DNA of 26,163 nucleotides from a virus. Of this stretch, positions 5,658 through 23,808 are shown piece by piece; the stretch's first letter is position 1, and each line of letters begins with the position of its first letter. The notes below the pieces were generated by a model, which was given only the letters and a program-made list of their open reading frames with translations, had not been told where the DNA came from and ran no database searches. A program made the translations under genes and the position numbers. Location of the stretch: the IMG/VR virus record IMGVR_UViG_3300021960_000440, positions 1-26,163 of that record, one strand, 5' to 3'.

Positions 5658-6758
5658 CTATTTTAGCCCTGCTAAACGTTTGATTTCAATAACGTTGTTA
5701 TCGTCTTCTGTAACGTTGTTTTTAGCAGATTTATTACCAGTTACTTCCGCACGTCCTTCAGATAAAACCGGTTTTTCGACCTTTGCTTTAACTGGAGTAT
5801 TGTTCAAAACTGCTGGCAAATACTTGTCATATGCTGATCTGAGTTTATCAGTCTGCACACCTTCGAGTAAGTCACTCATAATTGAGGCTTTCTCTTTGTT
5901 TAACGTACCAAGTAATTCATTAAGTGTGTCCTTACGGTCAGCACTTTCCTTGATTACTCGAATTTCACGTTCTTTTGATTCAACTAAAGTTTCTTTTTCA
6001 TCAATTGCTTTTTTACTTTCAGCAATTATTTGATCTTTTTCATCAATTACTGCTTGAAGTTTAGCAAGTTCTTTGTTCTCATTTAAATGAGTAACAGCAA
6101 ACTCATTAGCAAATGCTTCGAAGATTCTACGTCCAAACATGTTCTCGCGAGCACTTTGGATGTCTTCTTTTAGTTGAGCTAATTCTGAGCCTAGATTGTT
6201 TGTTACTGATTCTTTAACAAGATTAGCACTACGTTTAATAAAGGCTTTTTGTAGTTCAGCAAGTTTTGTTTTTGCTTCTGCTACAAGTTTAACTTTAGTT
6301 TCAACAACTGCTTTCTTGTCTTGATCAAACTCTTTGATCTCTTCAGCTAACGCATGGATTACAAATTTCTCTAGTTTAGCAATAGCTTCACTGTGAACTT
6401 TGCGATCTGCACGCAAATCTTTGATCTCTTCAGTTAATTTAGCAATTAAAAAATTGTTAAATTTTTCTGTGCTTTCAACCATTTGTTTTTTAAACTTAAC
6501 ACGGTCTTCAGCAAGAGCTTGTTTTTCTTCGGCAAAATCTTTGATTTCAGCGGAGAGTGTTTCAGTAACCATTTTGTCTAGAGCTTCAACCATTACTTTT
6601 TTGTCATGCTCATAGCGACCCGCAAACTCTTCACGCAATTCTGCACGAACTTGTTCACGTGTTTCATTTAATTTAGATTCCCAAGCTTCAGTTATAGCAG
6701 TTTGAGTCTCTTCATTAATGATGCCACTATCTAACAATGGTTTGATAGCATCTAACAT
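5658..6758 (-). CDS. gp22: Prohead core scaffold protein (gp22-like), 366 aa
   Basis: This is a highly charged Lys/Glu-rich, largely helical protein lying between genes 21 and 23, the T4 position of the major scaffold. The N-terminus (residues 1-30, LDAIKPLLDSGIINEE) resembles the start of other gp22 proteins. Residues 30-280 are almost continuous predicted coiled coil, including several FA/LAEEIKE-type repeats (near residues 75, 112 and 137). The C-terminus carries a short NVIEIKRLAGLK tail like those of scaffolds that bind the capsid shell. The scaffold would be degraded by gp21 during maturation. The ATG 6758 SD (AGGAG) overlaps the gp21 stop, showing translational coupling. Confidence 0.92.
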   Translation of the reverse strand: MLDAIKPLLDSGIINEETQTAITEAWESKLNETREQVRAELREEFAGRYEHDKKVMVEALDKMVTETLSAEIKDFAEEKQALAEDRVKFKKQMVESTEKFNNFLIAKLTEEIKDLRADRKVHSEAIAKLEKFVIHALAEEIKEFDQDKKAVVETKVKLVAEAKTKLAELQKAFIKRSANLVKESVTNNLGSELAQLKEDIQSARENMFGRRIFEAFANEFAVTHLNENKELAKLQAVIDEKDQIIAESKKAIDEKETLVESKEREIRVIKESADRKDTLNELLGTLNKEKASIMSDLLEGVQTDKLRSAYDKYLPAVLNNTPVKAKVEKPVLSEGRAEVTGNKSAKNNVTEDDNNVIEIKRLAGLK

Positions 6759-6767
6759 TGTGATCTC

Positions 6768-7409
6768 CTATTTAATTTTCAGATCTTTGATTAAGCGTGT
6801 TACTTGCTCTTTCAAATATTTCTGTACTTTTTGATCTGCACTGGCTTCACGTGCCATTTCGAATACCTTAGCACCACCACGCATATTCATCAGTCCTTCA
6901 TAGATCGCTGTTGGATACGCATTAGGAGCACTAGGTTGTGCAACTACATCAACTGTGACTATTTCAAAGTCACTAACTTTACCGTCAGCTTCGTTAACAT
7001 TACCACTGCCACGTGAGCTAACACCAAGTTTTACACCACTTTCCAACATGGTCTTAACTAATTGACCCATTGGAGTTGGTAAAATCTTTAATTTGCCATA
7101 GCCGTTTGGTCCATCCATCCACATTTCTGTGATCATGTGTGAAACACGGTCTAGGTTAATTTTCAAATCATCTGGGTGGTCTACTTCGCCTAAGACGCTG
7201 TAGCCACCAGTGATTTGTTCATTAAGAGTAGAAACAGCAGTGGCAATTTCATTTACAGGATATACACGTTCATTGTGATTTTTAACACCACCCTGAATAC
7301 ATATACCTTTCATGTAGAGATTTTTGCCACTGCCGTCTTTGGTATCTTCTGCTAGAATTTCCATTCTAGCCGCGTCAAATGTCAAATTCTCTTTTAGATA
7401 TAATGCCAT
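6768..7409 (-). CDS. gp21: Prohead maturation protease (gp21-like), 213 aa
   Basis: This serine protease is expected to cleave scaffold, core and capsid proteins inside the prohead. The herpesvirus-like/gp21 fold motifs are present: GEVDHP with His78, and GVSSRG with Ser131/Ser132. A DFEIVTVDVVAQPSAPNA segment follows, as in the family. The N-terminal region, GICIQGGVKNHNERVYP, is also typical of gp21. Length is close to T4 gp21 (212). It sits directly upstream of the scaffold gene, whose SD overlaps the stop of this gene. ATG 7409 follows TTTAGGAAAC as SD. Confidence 0.97.
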   Translation of the reverse strand: MALYLKENLTFDAARMEILAEDTKDGSGKNLYMKGICIQGGVKNHNERVYPVNEIATAVSTLNEQITGGYSVLGEVDHPDDLKINLDRVSHMITEMWMDGPNGYGKLKILPTPMGQLVKTMLESGVKLGVSSRGSGNVNEADGKVSDFEIVTVDVVAQPSAPNAYPTAIYEGLMNMRGGAKVFEMAREASADQKVQKYLKEQVTRLIKDLKIK

Positions 7410-8552: not shown

Positions 8553-10226
8553 TTATAATTCTGTTTCTGGGGGTGTATCTGTGCCTGGTTCTTCTAAGCC
8601 ACCTGGTGTTTCTTCAGTTTCGTCTGGTGGTACAAATTGATCCGTGTCTGCTTCAATACCCGCAGGAGTTACACCAACTGCCCTAAGTCCTGCTTCTGGC
8701 GTTACGTTGTTTTCACCGTTTTCTTCTGCCCATAATTCGTCATTTGAATTTAGTTCTTCTTCGCTGAGATCTAGATAACGTTTAAGTAAGAAACGTTTAG
8801 ATAGATATGGAACAGGTTCTAATTGTGTAAATGCCTGTATCCTAACTGAATCAACTTCTGCCTGTCTGTATTTGGCAAAGTTTTGTGGTTCGTTAAAGTG
8901 TAATTCAAACAGACTGTTATCAATATTAATGCCTCTCCATCGCATGAACATCTTAAATTCTTGATCTAATTTGTCAACAACAAGATTTTGCAAACGCATA
9001 CAATATTGATTAAATCTCCACTCTTGGATGAGTGCAGTGGTTGTTCTACCATCACCAAAGGTTCTTTCACTGTCATCTGATTGTGTTGGTAGATACGAAC
9101 TTGGAATACGTAGACCACGGAACATTTTATTAGTAAAGTAACGTAGATCGGTAATTTCGCCTAAATTTTGGCCACCTGGAAATACATCAACACTAGAACC
9201 ACGTCCATCTGCTGTTACAGGGAAGAAGTAATCTTCCATAGTGCTTAAAGGATTATAAGTAGCATCCATCATGTTTTGTCCGCCACCTGTTTGTGTTGGA
9301 ATACGACGTTGATGGATTTCGTTTTTGATACGATCAACAAATGCCATAGCCATATGGCTTGGCATATTACCTACGTCAATCTTAAATATACGTCTCTCTG
9401 GAGCACGTTGTATACGATAGATAATGATAGCATCTTCAAGTAATTCTTTTTGTTTAAATATCTTAAATATTGATTCTAATACTGAATTACCAAAGGGCCA
9501 ATTTAGATCAAGTCCTTCTGTCAGACTTAGATGTACCACATGTTCAGCATCAATTGCGGCTTCGTTTTGAGCATGGCTAAATCTAGTGCCGCCACTGTAG
9601 GGAACATTTGGTTGAGTGTATGCACCGCTTGGTCCGCCTACCTGCGGATGATTAACATAGCTGTCACTAGATGCAACCGCTGTGCTAGTTAAGTTTTCAA
9701 AATTGATATTAATGTCACGAATCAGATACTGTTCAGGTTCTTTGCCTTCACTTTCATTAACAATAACTTTAGTGACTTTGTGCATTTCTGTCCAAAACAA
9801 TTTAAATGTTTCTGGGTCACGCAAGAATACCTGATCTCCATATTTGATCACATTACGGAACAATTTGAATAGACGTTTATTAAATTGATTAAGAGTCACC
9901 CATTGTTGTAGTTGCTCTTTGATAATTTTAACTTCGTTGTCTGTGGGAGTTTCTTTAAAATAAAGATCAAAACCTGTACCGTTTTGTGTATTAGTTTGTG
10001 TGCAAAATTCTGCAATAATGTCTAAGGCCGCATTAACTTCACTGTCCATATCCATTTGCTCATATTGATTATATCTTTCAATACGATTTGGATGACCAAT
10101 ATAGACTTCTGGTAATTGGCTAGCAAAATTTCTGTAACCAGGATCAATTGAAGAATTGGAGCCATTGCCCAATGGGCTCATTTGTCCGCTAGTATTTGGT
10201 GCCTTAAAGTATTTTTTCCACGACAT
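8553..10226 (-). CDS. gp20: Portal vertex protein (gp20-like), 557 aa
   Basis: This forms the dodecameric portal through which DNA is packaged. Family hallmarks include MDMDSEVNAALDIIAEFCTQ (about residues 58-77) and LFKLFRNVIKYGDQVFLRD. Later come RAPERRIFKIDVGNMP, IHQRRIPTQTGG, YNPLSTMEDYFFPVTADGRG and FPGGQNLGEITDLRYF, then KMFRGLRIPSSYLP. These are the segments used to type T4-like phages by gene 20. Length is close to T4 gp20 (524). The C-terminal tail (last 60 residues) is acidic and Pro-rich. A late promoter-like element at 10248-10255 and GAGAGAA as SD precede ATG 10226. It opens the head module. Confidence 0.98.
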   Translation of the reverse strand: MSWKKYFKAPNTSGQMSPLGNGSNSSIDPGYRNFASQLPEVYIGHPNRIERYNQYEQMDMDSEVNAALDIIAEFCTQTNTQNGTGFDLYFKETPTDNEVKIIKEQLQQWVTLNQFNKRLFKLFRNVIKYGDQVFLRDPETFKLFWTEMHKVTKVIVNESEGKEPEQYLIRDININFENLTSTAVASSDSYVNHPQVGGPSGAYTQPNVPYSGGTRFSHAQNEAAIDAEHVVHLSLTEGLDLNWPFGNSVLESIFKIFKQKELLEDAIIIYRIQRAPERRIFKIDVGNMPSHMAMAFVDRIKNEIHQRRIPTQTGGGQNMMDATYNPLSTMEDYFFPVTADGRGSSVDVFPGGQNLGEITDLRYFTNKMFRGLRIPSSYLPTQSDDSERTFGDGRTTTALIQEWRFNQYCMRLQNLVVDKLDQEFKMFMRWRGINIDNSLFELHFNEPQNFAKYRQAEVDSVRIQAFTQLEPVPYLSKRFLLKRYLDLSEEELNSNDELWAEENGENNVTPEAGLRAVGVTPAGIEADTDQFVPPDETEETPGGLEEPGTDTPPETEL

Positions 10227-10247
10227 ATCTAATATTCTCTCACGTGC

Positions 10248-10255
10248 TATTTATT
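10248..10255 (-). promoter_or_regulatory. Late promoter-like element upstream of the portal gene
   Basis: Minus strand AATAAATA, one mismatch to TATAAATA, in the 44-base gap between the tape-measure-like gene and gene 20. It probably drives the head operon. Confidence 0.6.
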
Positions 10256-10270
10256 ACTATATTTAACCTT

Positions 10271-12415
10271 CTAGTAAGTGTTGCTTAATATTCCTGATGA
10301 TATATTATTGCTCTGTTTCATTGTTGAGAGAATATCATCAAGCACTTTGGTCTGCTGTGTGATCGCTGACGTTATTGTGCTACTGTCTAAACTTACAGGA
10401 ATTGATTTATTTTCTGGTAATGGTACAACTGCTTCTGCACCGTGTAAGGTAGCTTGATATCCTGAAATTGGTCCTTCTGCTATTCCGCCTACTGCATATT
10501 CACCAAACATTTTATCAAAGGCCTTGGTTCCAGCCATATATCCACCGGTAGCAGTGACAGTGGAACCAACTAGTCCTAACCCACCAGTCATCGCCGCAGT
10601 TCCGGCTGTGAGTGCCGCACCACTTGCAAACCCAACTACTTCTCTAGCAATAGATTTTAACCAACTCTTTTCACCCATAGTTCCCGATTCGTAACCAGCA
10701 GGAACGTCCAAACCAGCACGTTGCATCTGTTTGCGTAGGCCTGTTATGAGTTCATCTACAACTTTACCAAAACTACCTAATTTGGGTGTTAATTCTTTTT
10801 CAAACATCAATCCTAAACGCTGTGCTTCATTTTCAATGTGTATCACAGTGTCAGTTAACCGATCTGTTGTTTTTGCCTGGCCGTCAACTGCATCATAAAC
10901 TGATTTAATTCCTTCTTCATTCATTTTAAATGCTATGCTTTGCAACTCACTGTAGCCCTGTGACAGATCAGAATATGTGCCAGGTATCATTGCTGATGCA
11001 AAGGCTACACCTTGGCCTAGTTGATTAGTGCTGTTGGCAAATTTAGTAAAGAATGGACTTACTGCATCCATGCCTTGACGCATGTTGAAACTACCACTCA
11101 TGATAGCATCAGCTGATGCTCTGGCCGCTTCGCCAAATCCTGAAGTAATAGAAACTAGGTCTGTAGTTGTACCACTTAGTACAGTCTGCATGATAGCACG
11201 TCGTTGACCTTCAGGCAATGGTGCTAGGAATTGTGTTACCTGTGCAAAAAGATCACTCTGTCCTGTTCTTCTGGCCTGTTCCTCAATTTTGGCACGGAAA
11301 GCATAGTTTTCTGCTTCACGTCTGGCTTGTTCTGTTCTACGTTTAGCATCTTCACCTGTAATATCAGAAATTACTCTTAGATTATTTGCGTATCTTTCTG
11401 TGGCCTGTGCAATTTGCGGATTGGTAGCAGTGGCTAATGTGCCTGTTCTACGCATGTCTGCCATGACCTGTGCTACTAGTTCTGCTTGTTCTTCGTAGCC
11501 ATATCCTAATTTAAGAAGATTTTCTTGAATGCCACTGGATCTAATAACTCTACCAACGTCACCCATTCTACGTACTGCTTCGCCTACACTCAACCCTGTT
11601 TCTGCTAAAACTGACGAATTATTTTTAATAACATTAGCAAATTGATCTAGTCTTAATCCTGATGCATAGGCCGCATTACGCATACCAGTCATACCATTGG
11701 CAAATAGAGCACCCGCCGCACTAGATTGATTAAAGACTTTAACAGTTTTTTCTACTTCCTTGGCTAGAACGTCTATACCAAATTTGGCCAATTCAGCACT
11801 TTTATCTGTGACAAAGCCAAGGCCTTCTGCTAATAAACTAGCACCAGCACCTAACCATTTAAATTTACCTTTACCTAATACTGCCGCGGCAATACCCAAA
11901 TCACTAATAGCACTCAGTGCCGCTTTAGTCTGCTGTTGGGTAACATCAATAGCATTACCCATCATATTTGATGCTAGTCTAACACCACTAGATCCATCTT
12001 GCAGATCTGTAACTAGAGTCTTAACACTTTTAATAGCACCATTGACTAATATCTCACCTGTGGCTTTTAAAAATGCTTTAGCTACCGCCTGTTGGTTTCT
12101 AGCAAAATATTGATTGCTTATGCGTTGACGTTCAGTTTCAAGAGTGCTCCTGTCAATATGAGTATCAAGTTGTTCTATTGCTTCATCAAGATCTTCTAAT
12201 CCAGGTTTTAGATCAACTATTTTTTTATTAGCACCTTTGAGATTTTTATCAAGTTGTCCTAACTGCTTACTCACAAGGTCATGAAGACGCTGTTGCTTTT
12301 CATTAGCATCTGTGATATCTTTGATAGAGTCAACTGAGTCGTCTATCTGATCTGCGAACTTGGCAAGGGCTTCAGCCGTTCGCCTCATCTGTTCCTGGAG
12401 ATTTTCTTCATCCAT
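10271..12415 (-). CDS. Tail tape-measure-like protein, 714 aa
   Basis: The first 100 residues are a charged predicted coiled coil. The middle is long and helical. Hydrophobic Gly/Ala-rich stretches occur near residues 175-200 and 590-640, as in tape measure proteins. The C-terminal part has YAVGGIAEGPISGYQATLHG followed by AEAVVPLPENKSIPV. This G-G-I-A-x-G-P...H-G-x-E-A-V-V-P-L-P signature is frequent at the end of phage tape measure proteins. It lies back to back with gene 26, whose T4 relatives neighbour the tape measure gene 29. 714 residues is also close to T4 gp29 (590) and suits a tail of similar length. No SD is obvious at ATG 12415, and a late-type element lies 49 bases upstream. An alternative is a different tail or virion protein with the same C-terminal motif. 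Confidence 0.7.
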   Translation of the reverse strand: MDEENLQEQMRRTAEALAKFADQIDDSVDSIKDITDANEKQQRLHDLVSKQLGQLDKNLKGANKKIVDLKPGLEDLDEAIEQLDTHIDRSTLETERQRISNQYFARNQQAVAKAFLKATGEILVNGAIKSVKTLVTDLQDGSSGVRLASNMMGNAIDVTQQQTKAALSAISDLGIAAAVLGKGKFKWLGAGASLLAEGLGFVTDKSAELAKFGIDVLAKEVEKTVKVFNQSSAAGALFANGMTGMRNAAYASGLRLDQFANVIKNNSSVLAETGLSVGEAVRRMGDVGRVIRSSGIQENLLKLGYGYEEQAELVAQVMADMRRTGTLATATNPQIAQATERYANNLRVISDITGEDAKRRTEQARREAENYAFRAKIEEQARRTGQSDLFAQVTQFLAPLPEGQRRAIMQTVLSGTTTDLVSITSGFGEAARASADAIMSGSFNMRQGMDAVSPFFTKFANSTNQLGQGVAFASAMIPGTYSDLSQGYSELQSIAFKMNEEGIKSVYDAVDGQAKTTDRLTDTVIHIENEAQRLGLMFEKELTPKLGSFGKVVDELITGLRKQMQRAGLDVPAGYESGTMGEKSWLKSIAREVVGFASGAALTAGTAAMTGGLGLVGSTVTATGGYMAGTKAFDKMFGEYAVGGIAEGPISGYQATLHGAEAVVPLPENKSIPVSLDSSTITSAITQQTKVLDDILSTMKQSNNISSGILSNTY

Positions 12416-13987: not shown

Positions 13988-14016
13988 AGGGCATGTCATA
14001 TACATGCTCTTTTTTT
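13988..14016 (+). terminator. Rho-independent terminator of the small membrane protein gene
   Basis: GCATGT (13991-13996) pairs with ACATGC (14002-14007), extended by AGG/TCT-type pairs at 13988-13990, followed by seven T (14010-14016). Confidence 0.9.
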
Positions 14017-14033
14017 ATGGCATAAGTATATAC

Positions 14034-14618
14034 ATGAAAGTAATCAATTGTCATTTACCAAAAACAGCTACAATTACTACGCAAAAAATGTTTGGCAAAG
14101 AATGTGTTGTCTATGGTAAATCAACACTCAATGGAGAAATACCGGCTGGTGATGATGTTATTAGCTTTACGATCATTCGTGATCCGCTAGAAAGATTTTG
14201 TTCAGCTGTAAAGATGTTTGTTAAAAAAGATAAATGTAAATTAACACAGTCAGAGATAATTGATATTGCATTAGACAACGATTTTAGTGACAGACAACTT
14301 ACACAAGGTAGAGTACCTAATAAAGTTCAATATTCTATTGCATTACACACTTTGTCAATGTTTCATCCTCACATTAATGTGTTCTATGAAAATAAAACAC
14401 CTAAAGCAGATAACTTAATTGATTTTAACAATTTTGTTGCCGAATTAGAAAACTTAACTGATCGTAAGTTTAACAAAATACCACATGAAAATAAAGGTGC
14501 AGAAGTTGATATTATATTAACAGACAGTCAAATGCGATTGTTTAATCAAAAATATCATCATGATATTTTGTTCTATGAGAAGTTTTTGGAACAATGCAAT
14601 TTAGTTAAGTCGTTTTAA
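14034..14618 (+). CDS. Sulfotransferase-like protein, 194 aa
   Basis: The N-terminal HLPKTATITTQKMF (residues 7-20) corresponds to the 5'-phosphosulfate loop of sulfotransferases (usually K-T-G/A-x-x-[ST]). IIRDPLERFCSAVKMF in the first third corresponds to the 3'-phosphate-binding R-D-P-x-x-R-[FY]-x-S motif. Together they suggest binding of PAPS and transfer of sulfate to an unknown acceptor. The length, about 194 residues, is short for the family, and the Ile in place of Thr within the loop is a mild deviation. A longer frame from ATG 14004 would start inside the preceding terminator, so ATG 14034 is chosen; no clear SD is seen. The gene is alone between two terminators. Cell-surface or virion glycan sulfation are possible roles by inference. 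Confidence 0.7.
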   Translation: MKVINCHLPKTATITTQKMFGKECVVYGKSTLNGEIPAGDDVISFTIIRDPLERFCSAVKMFVKKDKCKLTQSEIIDIALDNDFSDRQLTQGRVPNKVQYSIALHTLSMFHPHINVFYENKTPKADNLIDFNNFVAELENLTDRKFNKIPHENKGAEVDIILTDSQMRLFNQKYHHDILFYEKFLEQCNLVKSF

Positions 14619-15054: not shown

Positions 15055-15501
15055 TTAAATGTTCTTTAAATCTTCTACTAATATGTTTTTGACGGAGCCG
15101 TTACCTAGTCTAACGTTAACGATCCCATTGTAGTTATCTTCTCTCAACAACACATGTTCTGTAATTTGAAAATACACTTCCATGTAGTTGGTTTCTCCAC
15201 GTGTTTTACAGAGATAGATAATTTCTCTTGTGAATTTATCTTTGCCTAGTTGGTCTATGTCTTTAGTGAGCCTGTCTGACGATCCCCAGTAGTCCTTCCA
15301 ATCTGTTTCAACTGTTGATCTACGTTTGTTCTTTTTGCCTTTTAGAGGTGGTCTCTTCTTTACTGTCCAGAAAAATTTACGACCTACATAGTCATGTCCA
15401 TTTTCTGTATTTGTGATTCTATATACGAACCCATAGTTGTCATTGATATCCTCAGACTCAAAAGGTTTGCCCTGGTAAGTCCAAGGATTATCATACGACA
15501 T
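15055..15501 (-). CDS. GIY-YIG-type nuclease, probable homing endonuclease, 148 aa
   Basis: Residues 23-41 (YGFVYRIT...HDYVGRKF) carry the paired motif of GIY-YIG nucleases, with GFV and YVG as the two signature tripeptides. A Lys/Arg-rich segment (KKRPPLKGKKNKRR) and DWKDYWGSS follow, then GKDKFTREIIYLCKTRGETNY, which contains the expected catalytic-region Arg and Glu. I recall this family as free-standing putative homing endonucleases of T4-like marine phages. The frame extends upstream to 15558, but ATG 15501 (MSYDNPWTYQG) is preferred because the longer start lies deep inside the upstream gene. It still overlaps that gene's stop by 11 bases. It abuts the structured RNA candidate on its 3' side. 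Confidence 0.72.
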   Translation of the reverse strand: MSYDNPWTYQGKPFESEDINDNYGFVYRITNTENGHDYVGRKFFWTVKKRPPLKGKKNKRRSTVETDWKDYWGSSDRLTKDIDQLGKDKFTREIIYLCKTRGETNYMEVYFQITEHVLLREDNYNGIVNVRLGNGSVKNILVEDLKNI

Positions 15502-16198
15502 ATTCTTTCCATATTTCTTTAAGATGCTGGTTGTATAGATAGTCAGCAAATTTTTCATGCCCTTCAGAATCTATTAAATGACCAGTTGACTTAGTTGGAA
15601 TATTATTCTCTTTAGCCCATTTAGGAATACTAAGATCAAATATATTCAGAATATTTTTCTTTTTTTCTAATATTTGATACATTTCAGTTCCAAAAATATA
15701 ATTTAAATTTGTCATACTATTTTCGTTTGGTGCTCCAGAAAAAATAAAGTAAGGAACATTAAGATTTTCTAATGTATTAACAAACATAAAAAATCTAGAA
15801 TAAAAACGAGCCCACATTGTGTTTACATCTTCTTCAACAAATTCTTCAACCTGCTTGTCAGTTAGTTGTGAGCGATCTAAATATTCTCGAGTAACTAGTC
15901 TACAGTTAGGATCTCCATTTTGAAATCTTTCTACTACATCTTTATCAGTAGATTCTGGTGCCCATAATTCTTCTCGACCAACAAAACTTAATGCTAATAA
16001 CACAAAAATATTTTGTCTTTGAGTACGTTTTAATTTAATGATATCCTCAATGGTAGATCTATATAATCTGTCATTTGAAGATCCTCGTACTGCTCGGTTT
16101 ATTAATGATCCGTTGAGTTTTTTATGTAAAAAAATAGGGTAAACGGAAAAATCGTCATGATGTTCTGTATAACTGTCCCCGTTTACATATAAAATCAT
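15491..16198 (-). CDS. SGNH/GDSL-hydrolase-like protein, 235 aa
   Basis: The N-terminus MILYVNGDSYTEHH has the GDS motif with Ser9 as probable nucleophile. RGSSNDRLY (residues 38-46) supplies the Gly and Asn positions of the oxyanion hole, and D210-x-x-G-H214 fits the C-terminal Asp-His pair. These are the SGNH blocks I, II/III and V, suggesting an esterase or acyl hydrolase, though no substrate can be read. It begins immediately after the TAA of the 59-aa gene (TAAATG), with no SD of its own, so it is probably coupled. It is a distant relative of the 22078-22791 product, which begins NGCSFTYG. Confidence 0.7.
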   Translation of the reverse strand: MILYVNGDSYTEHHDDFSVYPIFLHKKLNGSLINRAVRGSSNDRLYRSTIEDIIKLKRTQRQNIFVLLALSFVGREELWAPESTDKDVVERFQNGDPNCRLVTREYLDRSQLTDKQVEEFVEEDVNTMWARFYSRFFMFVNTLENLNVPYFIFSGAPNENSMTNLNYIFGTEMYQILEKKKNILNIFDLSIPKWAKENNIPTKSTGHLIDSEGHEKFADYLYNQHLKEIWKEYVV

Positions 16199-16378
16199 TT
16201 ACATTGAGTTCTTTTTGTCTTGAATCTCTGCTCTGCGTGCCTTGGCCAATTTACCTAGTTCACCTAATGCCTTACGGGCTCTTGCGGCCGCGGCTTTAAC
16301 ACCTTTGCCATCAAATACTTCTGCTTCTGCTACATAAGCATTAAATTGTTCTACGATTTGTTCATGGATTGTTGCCAT
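16199..16378 (-). CDS. Small basic, Ala/Lys/Arg-rich protein, 59 aa
   Basis: ATG 16378 has AAGGAAA at SD distance and the frame ends at TAA 16199. The product begins MATIHEQIVEQFNAYVAEAE and continues into a basic helix, AAARARKALGELGKLAKARR. From memory, marine T4-like phages share a small protein with the K-G-V-K-A-[AS]-A-x-R-A-R-K-A-L-x-E-L pattern, sometimes labelled histone-like. A nucleic-acid-binding role is plausible but not shown. It lies 21 bases downstream of the 61-aa basic gene and is joined end to end with the SGNH-like gene. Confidence 0.75.
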   Translation of the reverse strand: MATIHEQIVEQFNAYVAEAEVFDGKGVKAAAARARKALGELGKLAKARRAEIQDKKNSM

Positions 16379-16399: not shown

Positions 16400-16585
16400 T
16401 TAAACTACTGAAAATCGTCTTTCTATCTCTCGACGATATTTTGCTTTTTCTTTGTTACGCTGTGCTTTTTCAACAGCCTCTTCTAAACGAGCCTTGCTCC
16501 AACCTTTGATACGCGGTTTTTCGTTTTTAGTAAAGTTTGGATTTGCTTTACGTTTACCTGGGTGTACTCTTGCTGGACCTGCCAT
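16400..16585 (-). CDS. Small very basic protein, 61 aa
   Basis: ATG 16585 has a very good SD (AAGGAG). The product is about one third Lys/Arg (GKRKANPNFTKNEKPR, then EKAQRNKEKAKYRREIERR), with a helical C-terminal half and no Cys. I do not recognise it. High charge suggests RNA or DNA binding. It is preceded by a 57-base gap that contains a TTAAC/GTTAA inverted repeat at about 16609-16622, and it is the first of a pair of small basic genes. Confidence 0.65.
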   Translation of the reverse strand: MAGPARVHPGKRKANPNFTKNEKPRIKGWSKARLEEAVEKAQRNKEKAKYRREIERRFSVV

Positions 16586-16642: not shown

Positions 16643-17221
16643 TCAATAATCTAAATTACAGTATAAAGTTACTTCTTCAATGACAGTATTATTAGCAGTA
16701 TTAGTTGTATAATTTATAAAATCAATGATATCCTTTGTTTGTATACCGTTACCTGTCCAGTTATCACGAGAACGTGATAATTCAGTGTCAAGCCTGTCAG
16801 GACTGATCAATGTAGTCCTAAATTTGACTTTGTTGTCCTTAAAGGCACGAGTGCATTGTTGACTAGCGTGTCTCAATGCTGACTTGGCTATCCTGTAGGT
16901 TTCCCAATCAGGCTCCGGAGCAACTATTGACTTCTCGCCAATACTGCCTATGTTAAATATCCAACCTGTTTTGTTGTGTTCACGCCATTGCTTGTATACT
17001 TCTAGCAGTAAGTTGACTTGGCCAAAGTTAGCCCAGTCTTCTTGTGGGGGACCATCAAATGCGTTGTTGATAAAGACATCATATTCCAAACTTTTCTCTG
17101 CTATTGCTTGGATGTCCTTGGTAATGTCAAAGCCTGACTGTCTACTTATGCCATCAGCAGACATTTTGTTAACAATGTCTAGGCCTAGGCCCCTATTTCC
17201 GCCTGTTACTAATATTTTCAT
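16643..17221 (-). CDS. Short-chain dehydrogenase/reductase, 192 aa
   Basis: The Rossmann motif TGGNRGLG spans residues 6-13, NNA residues 52-54, the catalytic Ser is S93 in NIGSIG, and Y109-x-x-x-K113 is intact. All elements of a classical NAD(P)-dependent SDR are therefore present, in a protein shorter than the usual 250 residues. Its ATG overlaps the stop of the SPASM radical SAM gene by ATGA, so the two are made together. That suggests it oxidises or reduces the product or substrate of the radical SAM enzymes. The substrate is unknown. Confidence 0.85.
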   Translation of the reverse strand: MKILVTGGNRGLGLDIVNKMSADGISRQSGFDITKDIQAIAEKSLEYDVFINNAFDGPPQEDWANFGQVNLLLEVYKQWREHNKTGWIFNIGSIGEKSIVAPEPDWETYRIAKSALRHASQQCTRAFKDNKVKFRTTLISPDRLDTELSRSRDNWTGNGIQTKDIIDFINYTTNTANNTVIEEVTLYCNLDY

Positions 17222-18324
17222 CTAGTTTGATCCCATACTTTTGTAAATTGTTTACCACAAGTCATAGCACACTCAAAAATTCTTTCTCTACTAGTCCAAC
17301 TTGTAACCAAGTCTGACCAGAAAGGATTTTTAAATATGTCTTCTATAGTATAATTGTGTATATCTAGATTGTCAAGCCCATACTGTTCTAAAAATGTTCT
17401 TACTTGATTCTTTCCGTCTACAGTGTGTCCTTTGTTAGCACCTGGCAGTGTTCCGTCCCTAAACCTAGCATCATAGAGGTTGTGATTAAAGAAGTTACAG
17501 GGCAATATAACACCTTGTGCGTTCATAGCAACTTTTTTACCGTGTAGGCTATCACAATGTATGTCCGTGGTCTTAAAGTATTGCTGTAGGTCGTTATACT
17601 GCTTCTTAAGTTGAGGTAACTTAACGACACTTTGATTGCGCCACTCCTCACTCTCTGGTGGTTCCAATGTATATTCAACCTCTCCCTGCATATTCTTAAC
17701 AGGCCAATGATCTAATTCACGCTCCTCACCATGATGGAAGAAACGACCAGTCTTACGAGCAAGAAACTTAAAGAAGCCCATGTCGTTGGCAATCTGTTCT
17801 GCTTCACTGACCTGATGTTCGTTGTGTTTGAACACGATCATTTGCCACATAGCACGGCCGCCTGCATTAATAAATGCTTCTGCGTTCTCTATGACCTTGT
17901 CATAGTCTACGTTCTTGCGATATAGGTGCAGAGTATCTTTAAGACCATCCAGGCCAAAGTCTACTTGACCATAGCCATTCATTATCTCAGCCATCTCGTG
18001 CCAGTATGCAGGATTATGGGCACCACCATTGGTATGCACATACAACCACAGTGTGGGATTCTTACGACGGAAGTCTTTCAGTATGTCCAGGAACTCTGGA
18101 TGCACTATGGGGTCACCATAACTGCCACAGAAGAATACCTGTCTCAGTCTACTACATAGTTTAGGTGTAAATGCACGATCAATCACATCACGTTCCAAGT
18201 GAACTAAGTCCATGTAGGGATTTAACTTGCCACCTAGATCGTTGCGAGGACACTGTGGGCAACTGGCATTACAGTATGTTGTAATCTCTAGTTGATACTC
18301 GTCTATTGTAGTGTAATCAAACAT
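17218..18324 (-). CDS. Radical SAM protein with SPASM-like C-terminal cysteines, 368 aa
   Basis: C18-x3-C22-x2-C25 (in TTYCNASCPQCPRN) is the radical SAM iron-sulfur motif. GSYGDP (68-72) stands at the GGE position and VHTNGG at the next strand. C-terminal C257, C276, C352 and C356 could bind an auxiliary cluster as in SPASM or twitch domains. Such proteins commonly modify peptides, nucleotides or sugars. The start overlaps the end of the 170-aa gene by 8 bases and the stop overlaps the SDR start, so the cassette is tightly coupled. Confidence 0.88.
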   Translation of the reverse strand: MFDYTTIDEYQLEITTYCNASCPQCPRNDLGGKLNPYMDLVHLERDVIDRAFTPKLCSRLRQVFFCGSYGDPIVHPEFLDILKDFRRKNPTLWLYVHTNGGAHNPAYWHEMAEIMNGYGQVDFGLDGLKDTLHLYRKNVDYDKVIENAEAFINAGGRAMWQMIVFKHNEHQVSEAEQIANDMGFFKFLARKTGRFFHHGEERELDHWPVKNMQGEVEYTLEPPESEEWRNQSVVKLPQLKKQYNDLQQYFKTTDIHCDSLHGKKVAMNAQGVILPCNFFNHNLYDARFRDGTLPGANKGHTVDGKNQVRTFLEQYGLDNLDIHNYTIEDIFKNPFWSDLVTSWTSRERIFECAMTCGKQFTKVWDQTR

Positions 18325-18829
18325 CAGGTAGATCCTTAAAGAAGTTTTTTGACTCCTCTAGTATTTCTTTATTGGTTTTAAAAATAGTTCCTTCTAGTCT
18401 AGGACCCGACTTTCTCTTTGCTATCAACCACTGTGCCGCGGGACTGGCAAAATCAAGAGCCCACGTGCCATTGTGTCCTAGATATAGATTTGGCGATATA
18501 AACACTGGTTCGTTATCTGCCCTGTGCATGTATACCGGATAAAATTTACCTTCCCACAATTCTTGTTTTAGTTCCACATGATCCATCTTAATTTCTTTGA
18601 TTTCTATATGTTTATCAACAACTATGTTCCCATCCTCAACAATGTGATCATGTTTGCTCTTACCGTAGTGTATGATCTTTAACACGTGGCTACCATTGTC
18701 AATGTGGAAGTCAAAATGGAATTCTTCTTCAGCAAGACCTTCGTGGAGAACTAGATAGTCATCAATTACTATCCTTATCAACGGATCGCCCAATGTTCTC
18801 TCTACGGCAAATTTTAGATCTAAGATCAA
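18317..18829 (-). CDS. Unknown protein between two radical SAM genes, 170 aa
   Basis: I do not recognise a catalytic motif. The product starts MILDLKFAVERTLGDPLIRI and reads as a beta-rich domain. A D-G-N-I-V-x-D-K-x-I-E-I-K-E-I repeat lies near residues 65-80, and NLYLGHNGTWALDF near residues 112-125 recalls conserved unknowns in marine phages. It overlaps both neighbours (ATGA at 18826-18829; 8 bases at 18317-18324). Being locked between two radical SAM enzymes, it may be a substrate carrier, a substrate-recognition subunit or a binding protein. Five or more His residues in the first half might bind metal, but no fixed motif is seen. Confidence 0.75.
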   Translation of the reverse strand: MILDLKFAVERTLGDPLIRIVIDDYLVLHEGLAEEEFHFDFHIDNGSHVLKIIHYGKSKHDHIVEDGNIVVDKHIEIKEIKMDHVELKQELWEGKFYPVYMHRADNEPVFISPNLYLGHNGTWALDFASPAAQWLIAKRKSGPRLEGTIFKTNKEILEESKNFFKDLPDV

Positions 18830-20316
18830 TGTATCACTCCTATCAATCTTCTTTGATACTTGTCCATCATGATCTTCATTTGATCATCACCCTTCCAGAA
18901 TGTGTATCCTAGATCAACAGCATGTTCCTGTGCTTTGATCCTACGCATAATCCTTTCTTTGTAGGTCAATGATTCGTTACCTCGGGCTATCCAATGAGTG
19001 CCTTTTGGTCGCTTGCCATCTACACCAATAATGTTCAATGTCTCTGGTTTTTCATACATTTCTGTGCCTTCTTCCATAGTCAGTGTAGTTCCAAGATTAA
19101 CACCGATCACAGTTCCATCGGCTACATAGCGTTGGTATTTGGTCAGCATGTCTAAAGTTTCTTGGAAATCTTCTTCTGTTTCTGTAGGAAAGCCAACTAT
19201 AACTAGGAAGTATACCTGTATGTTCCACTTGCTGTATTGTTCCATGTTGTAGTCTAGATCGGCACCAGTAAACCCCTTCTTCATGTGTTCTCGCACACGA
19301 TCACTGCCTGATTCTACACCAATGACCATAGTCTCTGCGCCACCTCGGCCCATTAGTTCAAAGTCCTTGGGTTTAAAATGCTTCTCAGAATACACGATGG
19401 CATGGCTACTGTAACGGAAATATCTATCAGGCAAACCATGTTTCTCGTAGTAGTCTACCAATGCCTGATTGAATATCCTGAAGTCCTTTGGACTGCCGTT
19501 GCACAGTGCATCATGGAAGAAGTAATGTCTAACATTATATTTTTCATAGTAATGTATCATTTCATCTGCCAATTGCTGTCCGGTCTTAAATCTAAATCCA
19601 CCCTGCATATTGGGTATGTCACAGAACACGCATTTACGCAGACAACCTCTACTGGTCTCCATTGGTAACACACCATCCTCATAGCCACTTTGATATTTGT
19701 TGATGTCAAAGTCATCAAAGTCCATGTATGGGTGTTCCTTGACTTCACTGCGTTCTGCAAGGATGTCTGTGTCTATGCCCTGGACATCATAGTTTCCCTT
19801 GATGATCTCTGGTATGGTCGTTTCGGCTTCTCCTCTGATCCAATGATCTATTAGATTCTTTTCTTTGAGATAGTGTGCAAACGTTGGTTTGGTTGAGAAA
19901 GATCCATTCTCTTCCTTGATCAATCCCTGCCCGCCTATTATCACCTCAACAGTTGATCCATTACGTAAGCGTGTTAGAAAGTATTCGGTAAACTTCTGTG
20001 CCTGCCAGGAAAACACACTAAGGAACAGCAATCTTGGATCGAGTTCTTTGATCCTCTCGATCCATTTCTGACAGAACGAATCTAGTGCCGAGTCCTCTGA
20101 TTCAGTTAAAGTTTTTGACTCAATGAATAGAAAATCATCAATTGCCGTAAAGATAGCATCATCTACAGAATCTTTAAACTCCGTGAAGAAGTCTAGGTTA
20201 AGATCTAATATCCGGCTTTGTTTGTTGTGTTGGTTAAAGATTCCTTTGATGATCGCAGGAGCGGCCGCAGGCCTAACAGGTGCTACCCTAGGTACAGATA
20301 GTATTACTGCGTCCAT
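18826..20316 (-). CDS. B12-binding-type radical SAM protein, 496 aa
   Basis: Residues 1-165 resemble the N-terminal cobalamin-binding Rossmann-like region of class B radical SAM enzymes: ILDLNLDFF, FLSVFSWQ and EVIIGGQG. RGEAE at 161-165 is the typical link to the radical SAM core. The core has C225-x3-C229-x2-C232 in SRGCLRKCVFCDIP. Class hallmarks GVESGSDRV, and VGFPTETEEDF follow. Members often methylate unactivated carbons or do ring rearrangements; I see no clear D-x-H-x-x-G, so cobalamin binding is unproven. The start overlaps the gp46 stop (TAATG) by one base, which is an unusual partner for a recombination nuclease gene. Confidence 0.85.
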   Translation of the reverse strand: MDAVILSVPRVAPVRPAAAPAIIKGIFNQHNKQSRILDLNLDFFTEFKDSVDDAIFTAIDDFLFIESKTLTESEDSALDSFCQKWIERIKELDPRLLFLSVFSWQAQKFTEYFLTRLRNGSTVEVIIGGQGLIKEENGSFSTKPTFAHYLKEKNLIDHWIRGEAETTIPEIIKGNYDVQGIDTDILAERSEVKEHPYMDFDDFDINKYQSGYEDGVLPMETSRGCLRKCVFCDIPNMQGGFRFKTGQQLADEMIHYYEKYNVRHYFFHDALCNGSPKDFRIFNQALVDYYEKHGLPDRYFRYSSHAIVYSEKHFKPKDFELMGRGGAETMVIGVESGSDRVREHMKKGFTGADLDYNMEQYSKWNIQVYFLVIVGFPTETEEDFQETLDMLTKYQRYVADGTVIGVNLGTTLTMEEGTEMYEKPETLNIIGVDGKRPKGTHWIARGNESLTYKERIMRRIKAQEHAVDLGYTFWKGDDQMKIMMDKYQRRLIGVIH

Positions 20317-22085
20317 TATACAGTGTCCACATCAGTGTCATACATTGTAAATCCGTTTTCTTTGATTACTGTCATAATGTTATTTACACGACCTGCTAGT
20401 TCATCTCTGTGTGATACTAACCAAATTGATTTGTTATGCTCACGAGCCATTTTCTTAAGTATAGCCATAGCATTTTCAACACCACTAGCATCCATACCTG
20501 AGTCAACTAACTCGTCAATAAACAATAAATTGATTGGTTGATATAGGCTTTCCCAAACATCACGGAATGCCCAACTTAAACTTAATATAAGTCTATTACG
20601 CTCACCTCTTGATAAATTATCAAAGTCTAAATCTCTACCTAGTTCAGTAATCTCCACAGAAAGGTCATTTAAGAAAGTGACTGTATGTGGCAAACCTATC
20701 CTGTCAAGGTACTGACCTAGGCGAGCATTTAGATAACTTAGATTCTGATCAATGATACGTTTTCTAACAAAACTATCTTTATTGGTCAGAAGTTTATATA
20801 AAAAGTCTTGGTGTTCTTGTACACGTTTGTATTCGTTAATAGGTCCATAGTTAATTTCTTCTTCACTTTGCTGTTCCATTTCAGCAATTTGTTCATGATA
20901 TGGATCTTCTTCTTTTTGTTTAGCAGTTAACTGTAGTTCTAGATTACCAAGACTGGATCTATGATGAATAGCATCTTCTTCCTTAGAGTAAAATGTCTTA
21001 GGACGATCACCTGGATCACCTAGTTCTTCTAAAGCACTAACTAGTTCTTGATAAGTTTCTAAATGTTTAGCATGTTCTTGTTCAGCATCTTTAAGACTTG
21101 CTTCTTTAGCGGCCAACAACTCGTCATGTTTGTCATCATGTACATCTTGTCCACAAGCATGACATTTATGTTCACGTAGACTTTCTACATCTCCAGCAAG
21201 GTTTTCAATCGCTGACTCTTCACGTTTGTAGTCACGCTCTGCCTGTTTGATTGCTTTTTCAACTTGTTCACGAGCGACCACAGTTTCATTCCACTTGGCT
21301 AAATCTTTGTGTAACTTAATCTCTTCGTCAATGTCTATCTTTTGTAATTCTTCTAGTGCAGTTTTAATTTCATTGACATCATCTTCGTGCTTCTTAATCC
21401 ATAACGTCTGTCTACGTTTAATACTGTCAACTTGTTCTTTCATTTTAGCATTTGAATCTTGTACTGCTTTAATTTTATATTCTTCTTCTTTGATAGCATC
21501 ACGTATACGTTTTTGTTCTTCTTTTAACGCATCTGCTTTTTCTGATAATACAGTGATACCCAATAACTGTTCAATTATGGCACGCTGATCATTAGGTTTA
21601 AGTGCTAGGAAAGGTTCTGTGTAGGTGTTAAGAGCCACAACGTGCTTGAACATTTCGTGTTTCATGTTAAGCAGTCGTTCTATTTCTGCCTGTGTTTCAC
21701 GACTATCACCTTGAGCATTGTCTTCTGCTTCTTTTTCTTCTCCACCTATGTAGAATTTTAATATGTTAGGTTTACGTCCACGTTCTATTTTATAGTCAAT
21801 ACCGTTGTGTTGAAAATCCACAGTGACAATCATGGCCTTAGCGTTAGTTTTGTTAACTAGATTATCTCTCCTGATATTAGTTAGTGCTACACCATAAAAT
21901 GCGTATGAAAGGGCGTTGATGATAGTGGTCTTACCAGTTCCGTTACGGGCGCCACTATCATCGCCTCCAAGGTCTATATTCTTGCCTAATACCAAGGTGA
22001 GGTCATCGCGATCAAACGCTACTGCTTGTGTTGAATTACCAACACTCATAAAGTTCTTAACTGTGAGGTTCTTTATTTTAAACAT
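20316..22085 (-). CDS. gp46: Recombination endonuclease subunit gp46 (Rad50/SbcC-like), 589 aa
   Basis: ATG 22085 is chosen over a TTG at 22097 because it gives the family N-terminus (MFKIKNLTVKNFMSVGN). Walker A is GARNGTGKT (residues 45-53). A long coiled coil reaches the zinc-hook C308-H-A-C311. The return coil is followed by the ABC signature LSRGE (491-495), Walker B LLFIDE (520-525) and a switch His near WLVSHRDEL. All parts of a phage Rad50-type ATPase are thus present. With gp47 it processes double-strand ends for recombination-dependent replication. T4 gp46 has 560 residues. An SGNH-like gene separates it from 47, with an 8-base overlap at 22078-22085. Confidence 0.97.
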   Translation of the reverse strand: MFKIKNLTVKNFMSVGNSTQAVAFDRDDLTLVLGKNIDLGGDDSGARNGTGKTTIINALSYAFYGVALTNIRRDNLVNKTNAKAMIVTVDFQHNGIDYKIERGRKPNILKFYIGGEEKEAEDNAQGDSRETQAEIERLLNMKHEMFKHVVALNTYTEPFLALKPNDQRAIIEQLLGITVLSEKADALKEEQKRIRDAIKEEEYKIKAVQDSNAKMKEQVDSIKRRQTLWIKKHEDDVNEIKTALEELQKIDIDEEIKLHKDLAKWNETVVAREQVEKAIKQAERDYKREESAIENLAGDVESLREHKCHACGQDVHDDKHDELLAAKEASLKDAEQEHAKHLETYQELVSALEELGDPGDRPKTFYSKEEDAIHHRSSLGNLELQLTAKQKEEDPYHEQIAEMEQQSEEEINYGPINEYKRVQEHQDFLYKLLTNKDSFVRKRIIDQNLSYLNARLGQYLDRIGLPHTVTFLNDLSVEITELGRDLDFDNLSRGERNRLILSLSWAFRDVWESLYQPINLLFIDELVDSGMDASGVENAMAILKKMAREHNKSIWLVSHRDELAGRVNNIMTVIKENGFTMYDTDVDTV

Positions 22086-22791
22086 GTAAATGATCAATAA
22101 TTAAATTACTAAGGTGCTTGTGGCCTTGTTCTAATATATGTCCACCAGGACCAACACTAAATGATGTACACAGATCTGTAATATAAAAGTCATTCCATTT
22201 ATAAAACTTAGATATGTCTATTAAACTTATATAATACTGTATTTCGTTGTATTCGTCACTGATTTGTTCGTCGTTCATTGAATCAAAATTGATTAAATGT
22301 TTAACTGAACCTAAAAACAATTCTTCAGGCGCTAACCACAGAGATAAATTATTTGGCATAGTATTAATCATGAGATAGTTTTTATCTTGTAATATCAACT
22401 GTAATTGAATTATTTGCTGTAGCCAAAGTTTAAAAGAAAACAATTCATTATACCAATGCTTGTATAAAGTTGCTCCCCAATCTCGATAAAACGATTCTTT
22501 AGCATACAGCCCGCCTTCCATGCGGCTATTAAAATCAATTTCAAAATTATTTTCGCTTTTGTAAAATGTAAATCTAGAATAATCAGTCCAGGCAATCAGA
22601 TATAAATCATAATCATCATGAGTATCTTTAACAGTGTGATATACAGTACGCTGGTTGGTACCCCCTGGCGTAGCACGATTCACTAGAGTTCCTCCTAGAT
22701 GGTTGCTAATTAACCTTGGCCATGCACTTTCTTGCGGTGACTCCAATTCATGACCGTAGGTAAAACTACACCCATTCGCATATATTTTCAA
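22078..22791 (-). CDS. SGNH-like protein between genes 47 and 46, 237 aa (TTG start)
   Basis: The frame begins at TTG 22791 directly after the gp47 TAA (TAATTG). No ATG lies near, and the family N-terminus M-K-I-[YF]-x-N-G-C-S-F-T-x-G is complete only from this TTG, so the TTG start is supported. GCSFT (7-11) replaces the usual GDS. GGTNQRT (43-49) fits the block with Gly/Asn, and GGHILEQGHKHL near the C-terminus fits the final His block. Trp and Tyr are abundant in the middle. Similar genes of the NGCSFTYG type occur in marine T4-like phages and are of unknown role. Overlap with gp46 ensures co-translation. Confidence 0.75.
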   Translation of the reverse strand: MKIYANGCSFTYGHELESPQESAWPRLISNHLGGTLVNRATPGGTNQRTVYHTVKDTHDDYDLYLIAWTDYSRFTFYKSENNFEIDFNSRMEGGLYAKESFYRDWGATLYKHWYNELFSFKLWLQQIIQLQLILQDKNYLMINTMPNNLSLWLAPEELFLGSVKHLINFDSMNDEQISDEYNEIQYYISLIDISKFYKWNDFYITDLCTSFSVGPGGHILEQGHKHLSNLIIDHLHV

Positions 22792-23808
22792 TTATAAATC
22801 CCTATAGATTGACAATAACAAATTAGGATCGTATGTGTCACTCTGTATGCTGGTCAATTGGTTAGTAACAATGGTATCAATTGATTCAAATGCCACATTA
22901 CCTAACTGTATGTCATCACCTATTGTGGTTTCTTTAACAGGTATCAGTGTAAGTTCACGTAGATTGTATGTACCAACAAATGTTTCTTTAATAAACGTTG
23001 CTTCTTCATAGGTAATGTCAATATCTAAATTAACTCTACAGTGCATGTTTGATAGTAGTAAATCTTCTGGCTTTTTAAGCACATCACTTAAATTGTAAAC
23101 TCTATATTTAGGTTGATCAGGCCAAGCAAAATGTTTAGCAGGCTCGCCCCACTCTAACACAGTCATGCCTCTGGCATCATCTCCAGCATCTGCATAGTTG
23201 TGTGGAAAGCAGTTACCAACATAGGTAATATTTTTATTAGTTTGACGTTTGTGGAAATGTCCACTAAACATATGATCCACACCTTTAAAATGATCTCTTG
23301 ATATTTCACCTACGTCTGGCATCTGTACCATGGCATTCATATAGAAACTGGGCAATTCAAAGTGTCCAAACATATACTTGGCTTGAATCTTTTGTACTTT
23401 TTTATGATCATCACCAACTAGCCAAGGAACAAATGATACATCACCTTCTTTGTGAAAGTCATTGACTATTTCAATGTTTGGAATATGTCTAGCCCACTCT
23501 GCTGATTGAATGTCACGTTTATCTCTGTAGTACAAGTCGTGATTGCCTGGAATAAAAAACACTCTATCAAATGCTTTGCCCAGTAATTCAAGTGCCTGTA
23601 GACTGTAGTTAAGTGTAACAATGTTGATTGCCGCTCTGTTGTTATGCCAGTCACCCAGCATTAGGCATGTTTCACAGCCTTCTTCTTTGGCTTTTGAAAT
23701 AAACCATTTTACAAAGTTCAAACAATCTTCGTTGTGTGTAGTTGAATTAGATTTCAGACCAAAATGGATGTCAGTCAGAATCGCCGCTTTCTTAAATAAA
23801 TTTGCCAT
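22792..23808 (-). CDS. gp47: Recombination endonuclease subunit gp47 (Mre11/SbcD-like), 338 aa
   Basis: All metallophosphoesterase motifs are visible: D13-x-H15 (LTDIHFG), GD-x-H-N-N (52-57), GNHD (88-91) and GHFH in the FSGHFHKRQ segment near residue 183. A GNCFPHNYADAGDDARG segment follows, typical of phage gp47. Length matches T4 gp47 (339). It is the nuclease partner of gp46. It begins 52 bases downstream of the gp55 stop, without an obvious SD, and ends in TAA joined to the TTG start of the next gene. Confidence 0.97.
   Translation of the reverse strand: MANLFKKAAILTDIHFGLKSNSTTHNEDCLNFVKWFISKAKEEGCETCLMLGDWHNNRAAINIVTLNYSLQALELLGKAFDRVFFIPGNHDLYYRDKRDIQSAEWARHIPNIEIVNDFHKEGDVSFVPWLVGDDHKKVQKIQAKYMFGHFELPSFYMNAMVQMPDVGEISRDHFKGVDHMFSGHFHKRQTNKNITYVGNCFPHNYADAGDDARGMTVLEWGEPAKHFAWPDQPKYRVYNLSDVLKKPEDLLLSNMHCRVNLDIDITYEEATFIKETFVGTYNLRELTLIPVKETTIGDDIQLGNVAFESIDTIVTNQLTSIQSDTYDPNLLLSIYRDL

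Follow-up and report, generated by a model that had tools for sequence, protein, structure and literature searches.

What do two radical SAM (S-adenosylmethionine) enzymes do directly behind a recombination gene of a bacteriophage? The question is raised by IMGVR_UViG_3300021960_000440, a complete virus contig of 26,163 bases (the window hereafter) from a large T4-like virus of bacteria, where four overlapping genes follow gp46 on the minus strand: those for a cobalamin-type radical SAM enzyme (B12rSAM), a protein of 170 residues (p170), a SPASM/twitch-type radical SAM enzyme (rSAM2) and a short-chain dehydrogenase/reductase (SDR). A sequence-only reading of this DNA had taken them for one pathway-like set, coupled to gp46 and acting on a peptide, a nucleotide or nucleic acid, or a glycan. 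We found that the four genes are two separately inherited modules, a swappable B12rSAM-p170 pair (module 1) and a resident, nearly fixed rSAM2-SDR pair (module 2). With moderate confidence, we interpret the block as a modular sugar-tailoring locus, in which two independent enzyme pairs occupy a slot between gp46 and a gene encoding a GIY-YIG endonuclease.

Two modules rather than one pathway

Relatives were gathered by separate searches with B12rSAM, p170 and rSAM2, which returned 136 virus loci (designated by L and a number); in some cases these are pieces of a single contig that overlap. All close relatives come from metagenomes, and the records include many fragments and, in some cases, repeated copies of a single phage. 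Where gp46 is in view, 24 distinct loci have B12rSAM together with p170 and 22 have neither, with no discordant case (Fisher 1e-13); in L125 and L127 a divergent neighbour of 130 aa was scored by eye as p170. B12rSAM adjoins 50 of the 53 distinct p170-family proteins, two further p170s being found at contig edges. The pair holds together where its gene order is inverted (L004, L006) or its strand is switched (L067, L069), and it also occurs in a marine contig with 34% identity. Pairwise protein distances of B12rSAM and p170 are correlated at 0.97 across 32 taxa, and at 0.96 with gp46 removed.

Module 2 is inherited differently. The distances of rSAM2 track those of gp46 (correlation 0.77), whereas correlations between the modules, in as many taxa, are 0.05 and -0.01, and the residual correlation is about zero. 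Of 52 distinct loci retrieved with rSAM2 as the sole query, 51 have the SDR gene directly downstream and one has it fused to rSAM2; this count refers to the main rSAM2 only, its more distant paralogues often being without an SDR. Natural rSAM2-SDR fusions are carried by L136, L064 and L065. The exchange of module 1 is visible even among the nearest relatives of our contig, whose rSAM2 is 85-93% identical: L068 and L070 are devoid of B12rSAM-p170, L071 carries a version with 43% and 38% identity, and in L067 and L069 a version with 38-40% identity lies on the opposite strand.

On the presence/absence pattern and the distance correlations, we reject the four genes as one pathway. The proposal of a pathway-like set is borne out in that the two radical SAM enzymes and the reductase belong to enzyme sets; as for conservation as a unit, the genes of the four-gene block do occur separately, but within each pair they do not. 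An exception outside this locus is L152, where a p170-like gene stands on its own next to a cytidylyltransferase-like gene and a glycosyltransferase (GT)-like open reading frame (ORF). In L027 (6510-8268) a second copy of p170 follows what may be an additional radical SAM gene, suggesting that parts of the cassette were duplicated.

Among 50,697 phage records, no match was found to B12rSAM, the SDR, p170 or two divergent members of the p170 family, and a scan of a genome collection yielded five distant contigs only, one of which (L138) has the same B12rSAM-p170 pair. A literature search for this architecture retrieved only a general remark on radical SAM cassettes (PMC7029224).

The p170 protein and its cobalamin-type partner

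No match to p170 was found in Pfam, PHROGs or NCBIfam. Its AlphaFold2 model, with a moderate predicted local distance difference test score (pLDDT) of 69.5 overall and about 78-95 over residues 1-80, is a beta-sandwich. The best VIA-align match is vCBM60 2xfd (Z 8.6, root-mean-square deviation 2.2, 98 of 109 residues aligned), followed by 2xhh, also of the CBM60 type (Z 8.4), and all remaining rows score 5.0 or lower. Foldseek returned the same top two with probabilities of 0.99-1.00, yet with E-values of just 0.04-0.07. Because no sequence-level relation was detected, we call p170 CBM60-like by fold only; it is a predicted carbohydrate-binding-module-like partner of B12rSAM. It resembles the calcium-dependent carbohydrate-binding modules CBM60 and CBM36 in the predicted beta-sandwich, but differs from them in lacking detectable sequence similarity and in being a separate protein that is partnered with a radical SAM enzyme. 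A search with PF16841 for CBM60 sequences in about 100 bacterial genomes gave none. The recognition-element fold that had been envisaged for the 170-aa protein is unsupported, as the model is not a winged helix.

B12rSAM scores above the Pfam cut-off for the radical SAM superfamily (PF04055) and possesses the CxxxCxxC motif at C225/C229/C232, which is present in 52/52 relatives; the DxHxxG motif is absent from the protein, with the same 52 relatives examined. Profile matches in the PDB include 9ccb (MgmA), OxsB and TokK, while NCBIfam models point, far below cut-off, to methyltransferase relatives. Judging by its architecture and by the matches to MgmA, OxsB and TokK, B12rSAM likely binds cobalamin. 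The known cobalamin radical SAM sugar methylases GenK and GenD1 (PMC5461906) offer a parallel by architecture, not by family placement: they share the B12-type radical SAM layout with B12rSAM, which plausibly acts on sugars as well but, unlike them, comes with a separate binding protein.

The weak similarities of B12rSAM also extend to PhpK, lipid-B12 and other models of secondary metabolism, and there is a weak match to the PADLOC candidate-defence model PDC-M51A (E=3e-11). These would fit tailoring of a small molecule during infection (a lipid, a signalling nucleoside or an antibiotic-like metabolite), e.g., one directed against competitors or serving host takeover. We regard this as decidedly unlikely: the block contains no conserved assembly or loading enzymes, and the strict partnership with p170 suggests a ligand- or polymer-binding adaptor.

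rSAM2, SDR and the question of a peptide substrate

rSAM2 also exceeds the Pfam cut-off for PF04055, with the cluster cysteines at C18/C22/C25 and the CxxxCxxC motif in 77/77 relatives; the pattern of auxiliary cysteines (C257, C276, C352, C356) recurs in 76 of these 77. Its AlphaFold2 model is of high confidence (pLDDT 93.9) and matches SuiB (Z 19.7), SkfB (18.9), BlsE (18.4), MoaA (18.2), anSME (17.7), DesII (17.3) and BtrN (15.9). The auxiliary-cluster cysteines, together with a fold matched at Z 15.9-19.7, place rSAM2 in the SPASM/twitch type; among the proteins of similar fold, BlsE, DesII and BtrN act on sugars or cyclitols. The SDR retains the TGxxxGxG and YxxxK motifs in 74/74 relatives and scores above the cut-off for PF00106. 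A viperin-like defence role for rSAM2 was rejected, since no PADLOC match was obtained.

The top fold scores of SuiB and SkfB, with anSME and PqqE close, speak for an enzyme that acts on polypeptides. So does the fact that MgmA, the nearest solved relative of B12rSAM, methylates a glutamine of a protein, and rSAM_ocin_1 is among the weak NCBIfam matches of B12rSAM. In such a scheme B12rSAM would C-methylate, and rSAM2 crosslink or oxidise, residues of a ribosomally synthesized and post-translationally modified peptide (RiPP) or of a phage or host protein. However, SuiB, SkfB and CteB align to rSAM2 only past their first 90-100 residues, so that rSAM2 is without their N-terminal RiPP recognition element part, and p170 is modelled as a beta-sandwich, although the genome may encode an unrecognised recognition element elsewhere. 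Among the ORFs surveyed, the block likewise holds no conserved gene for a small precursor. The two small basic proteins of 61 and 59 residues (p61 and p59) encoded downstream of the SDR, which the sequence-only reading had suggested examining for modification, are indeed present in the window; among 125 loci of relatives with SDR and a GIY-YIG gene (not deduplicated), they recur in L072 only. Being absent from nearly all loci with the enzymes, p61 and p59 are not part of the set and are rejected as its substrates, and a survey of ORFs of at least 60 aa revealed no other conserved one in the block. Modification of a peptide or protein is therefore unlikely in our view.

A different precedent for module 2 is provided by apramycin biosynthesis, in which the radical SAM diol dehydratase AprD4 and the NADPH-dependent reductase AprD3 carry out the C3' deoxygenation (PMC5461906). 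As in AprD4/AprD3, a radical SAM enzyme is paired in module 2 with an NAD(P)H-dependent reductase, to the point of fusion in some phages, and the obligate pairing of the main rSAM2, though not of its paralogues, with SDR (adjacent or fused in all 52 loci) fits this type of partnership. Unlike AprD4/AprD3, the pair is phage-borne; the proposed likeness is one of division of labour, and diol dehydratase activity of rSAM2 is putative.

An insertion slot behind gp46

The overlaps at the junctions amount to 1 base (gp46/B12rSAM), 4 bases (B12rSAM/p170), 8 bases (p170/rSAM2) and 4 bases (rSAM2/SDR). Thus, four overlapping genes do follow gp46, with the coordinates, families and 1-8-base overlaps described earlier. 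Their "translational fusion" is nonetheless an ordinary stop-start overlap. Relatives display a near-constant frame, gp47-[variable]-gp46-[variable]-rSAM2-SDR-GIY-YIG, where the contents of both bracketed slots differ from phage to phage. The genes found after gp46 vary, and often overlap it by 1 to 11 bases. The gap between gp47 and gp46 forms a second insertion slot, in which the SGNH-like gene of our contig is replaced by other genes in relatives. The closest cultured relatives of gp46 belong to large Arenbergviridae-type phages (48.6%), and the cultured phage Paride has the late sigma factor gene (gp55), gp47 and gp46 together and no radical SAM gene behind gp46; this arrangement is the empty version of the site. 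Because whichever gene follows gp46 often overlaps it, the overlap carries no functional message. With other genes taking the same place with the same overlaps, and with Paride devoid of the insert, functional coupling to gp46 is rejected, and the idea that the product acts on DNA or during replication loses its support from this position. We read the position as a likely hot spot of insertion, not as a sign of a functional tie.

The gene directly after SDR encodes, in most relatives, a SegE-like GIY-YIG endonuclease, and it is a plausible inference that this enzyme helps the cassettes spread. Just past the GIY-YIG gene, a recurring stretch contains arginine-rich ORFs on the minus strand (L004 12128-12526, L006 13159-13461, L009 12426-12713), which may represent a non-coding or antisense element rather than a protein. 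In L156 (2309-6514), genes for a twitch radical SAM enzyme, a RecA/UvsX-like protein, a p170-like and a B12rSAM-like protein stand in series, with p170 preceding B12rSAM; this is another insertion next to a recombination gene.

The gp46/gp47 neighbourhood has a bearing on a further explanation, by which the enzymes would build a hypermodified base or nucleoside that protects the phage DNA. The RecA/UvsX-like neighbour of the L156 pair, the QueE-, QueD- and FolE-looking ORFs that we noticed by eye in a related large record, and the presence of MoaA and viperin among the fold neighbours of rSAM2 all speak for it. We nevertheless consider it quite unlikely. The neighbourhood of gp46 is a general slot of varied content and holds no radical SAM genes in Paride; no gene of the thymidylate-synthase family, to which dCMP/dUMP hydroxymethylases belong, was found in 19 long related records (possibly fragments, not all independent); and the fold of p170 points to carbohydrate.

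Sugar-related genes around the cassette and the case for a glycan

Neighbouring slots in relatives hold genes for GDP-mannose-dehydratase/epimerase-like, class I methyltransferase, Asp/Arg-hydroxylase-like and SGNH-like proteins. Nucleotide-sugar epimerases are encoded in 7 of the 19 long related records, five of these apparently being the same phage. The radical SAM-rich regions of the long records additionally contain genes for a DegT-type aminotransferase, an epimerase and a carbamoyltransferase, as well as arrays of twitch radical SAM genes, and one related record of 364 kb has 16 radical SAM matches. About five twitch-type radical SAM genes form an array common to two related phages, L154 (2497-14001) and L158 (2726-9193); in L154 a carbamoyltransferase gene comes after it. 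ORFs of L155 at 1680-2525, 6752-7258 and 9896-10588 look by eye like QueE, QueD and FolE and may make a 7-deazaguanine precursor; here and throughout, the labels GT-like, QueE-like, QueD-like and FolE-like come from reading the sequences, without a family match.

Distant homologues of rSAM2 in cultured phages have similar surroundings: that of Pelagibacter phage Mosig is accompanied by genes for an ArnB-like aminotransferase and a carbamoyltransferase, and that of Campylobacter phage CP220 lies near genes for nucleotide-diphospho-sugar transferases. In pelagimyophages, radical SAM cassettes have been reported in a glycosyltransferase-rich host-recognition cluster (PMC7029224). Our locus is likewise phage-borne, cassette-like and, in its relatives, near sugar genes. 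It differs from these systems in its position behind gp46, the nearest relatives of which are in Arenbergviridae, and in a defined two-module architecture that is not described there.

Of the targets originally offered, a glycan is thus the one of the best-supported reading, given the p170 fold and the sugar-gene context; compared with it, a peptide or DNA is less likely. Several observations weigh against the sugar-tailoring interpretation. Our contig has no clear glycosyltransferase gene, just a sub-threshold sulfotransferase-like one, and several GT-like-looking cassette genes match no Pfam family. The p170 model is of moderate confidence, and neither a PF16841 match nor an hhalign comparison with vCBM60 better than shuffles was obtained, so that sequence homology of p170 with CBM60 is unsupported. 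The B12-binding domain PF02310 is sub-threshold in B12rSAM (E=0.0016) and was seen, likewise below threshold, in 2 of 11 members. The fold scores of rSAM2 fail to separate peptide maturases, with SuiB and SkfB at the top, from sugar enzymes. Finally, we infer the glycan substrate, the reactions and their biological purpose.

Under the sugar-tailoring interpretation, p170 would act as an adaptor that holds a glycan chain for B12rSAM, and the latter, as a class B enzyme, would C-methylate a sugar or make another carbon-centred change. In module 2, rSAM2 would take a hydrogen from a sugar carbon via the 5'-deoxyadenosyl radical, giving rise to a keto intermediate by dehydrogenation or dehydration, which SDR could then reduce with NAD(P)H; the product would be a sugar that is deoxygenated or epimerised. 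The modified glycan probably sits on the host surface, where it would block competing phages, or on the virion.

Gene calls and other features of the locus

The same gene order is found in dozens of distinct virus contigs and the cassette genes are under purifying selection (dN/dS, the ratio of nonsynonymous to synonymous substitution rates, of about 0.04-0.17); therefore, they are not chance ORFs. By their sequences, all four cassette proteins are products of real genes, and the three enzymes keep intact catalytic motifs. Scans for T4 late promoter sequences and for sigma-70-like promoters both gave chance numbers only, so a promoter of its own cannot be claimed for the cassette.

Table 1. 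Features of the locus in the window, in minus-strand gene order from gp47 to the GIY-YIG gene, with the plus-strand gene beyond it
Feature	Coordinates	Strand	Evidence
gp47-like (SbcD-like) nuclease subunit	22792..23808	-	position, homology across loci, synteny with Paride
SGNH-like protein (DUF6071-like), gp47-gp46 slot	22078..22791	-	PF19547 E=0.004, sub-threshold
gp46, SbcC-like recombination nuclease subunit, upstream anchor of the slot	20316..22097	-	PHROG 77 E=2e-97
B12rSAM, class-B-like (cobalamin-type) radical SAM enzyme, 496 aa	18826..20316	-	PF04055 E=4e-17
p170, 170 aa, TTG start, predicted beta-sandwich	18317..18829	-	AlphaFold2 model
rSAM2, SPASM/twitch-type radical SAM enzyme, 368 aa	17218..18324	-	PF04055 E=3e-11; AlphaFold2 model
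SDR, short-chain dehydrogenase/reductase, 192 aa	16643..17221	-	PF00106 (adh_short) E=2e-7
p61, basic 61-aa protein	16400..16585	-	
p59, 59-aa protein	16199..16378	-	Pfam Hc1 (histone H1-like) E=3e-11
Second SGNH-like protein (DUF6071-like), downstream of the cassette	15491..16198	-	PF19547 E=5e-5, sub-threshold
SegE-like GIY-YIG endonuclease, usual downstream border of the cassette	15055..15558	-	PF19835 E=4.5e-39
Sulfotransferase-like protein, just beyond the GIY-YIG gene	14004..14618	+	PF03567 E=0.004, sub-threshold

By its Hc1 match, p59, encoded next to the basic p61, would give this T4-like phage a small protein of the nucleoid type. The product of 15055-15558 (minus strand) is labelled 'NAD synthetase' in PHROG 447, as opposed to SegE-like GIY-YIG in Pfam; the PHROG entry is probably mis-annotated.

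Significance for large aquatic phages

It is possible, though doubtful, that large aquatic phages practise a previously undescribed kind of polysaccharide editing, in which free-standing carbohydrate-binding adaptors bring cobalamin radical SAM enzymes onto assembled glycans and, together with deoxygenating or epimerising radical SAM-SDR pairs, are swapped as cassettes to rewrite surface glycans in infection. The locus cautions against inferring function from an overlap with gp46. If the sugar-tailoring interpretation is true, some of the radical SAM genes that are dispersed over aquatic phage genomes would gain a function open to testing, p170 would represent a new family of free-standing binding proteins in one-to-one partnership with a cobalamin-type radical SAM enzyme, and infecting phages would alter sugar chains at C-H and C-O bonds, chemistry that elsewhere is known chiefly from the biosynthesis of antibiotics.

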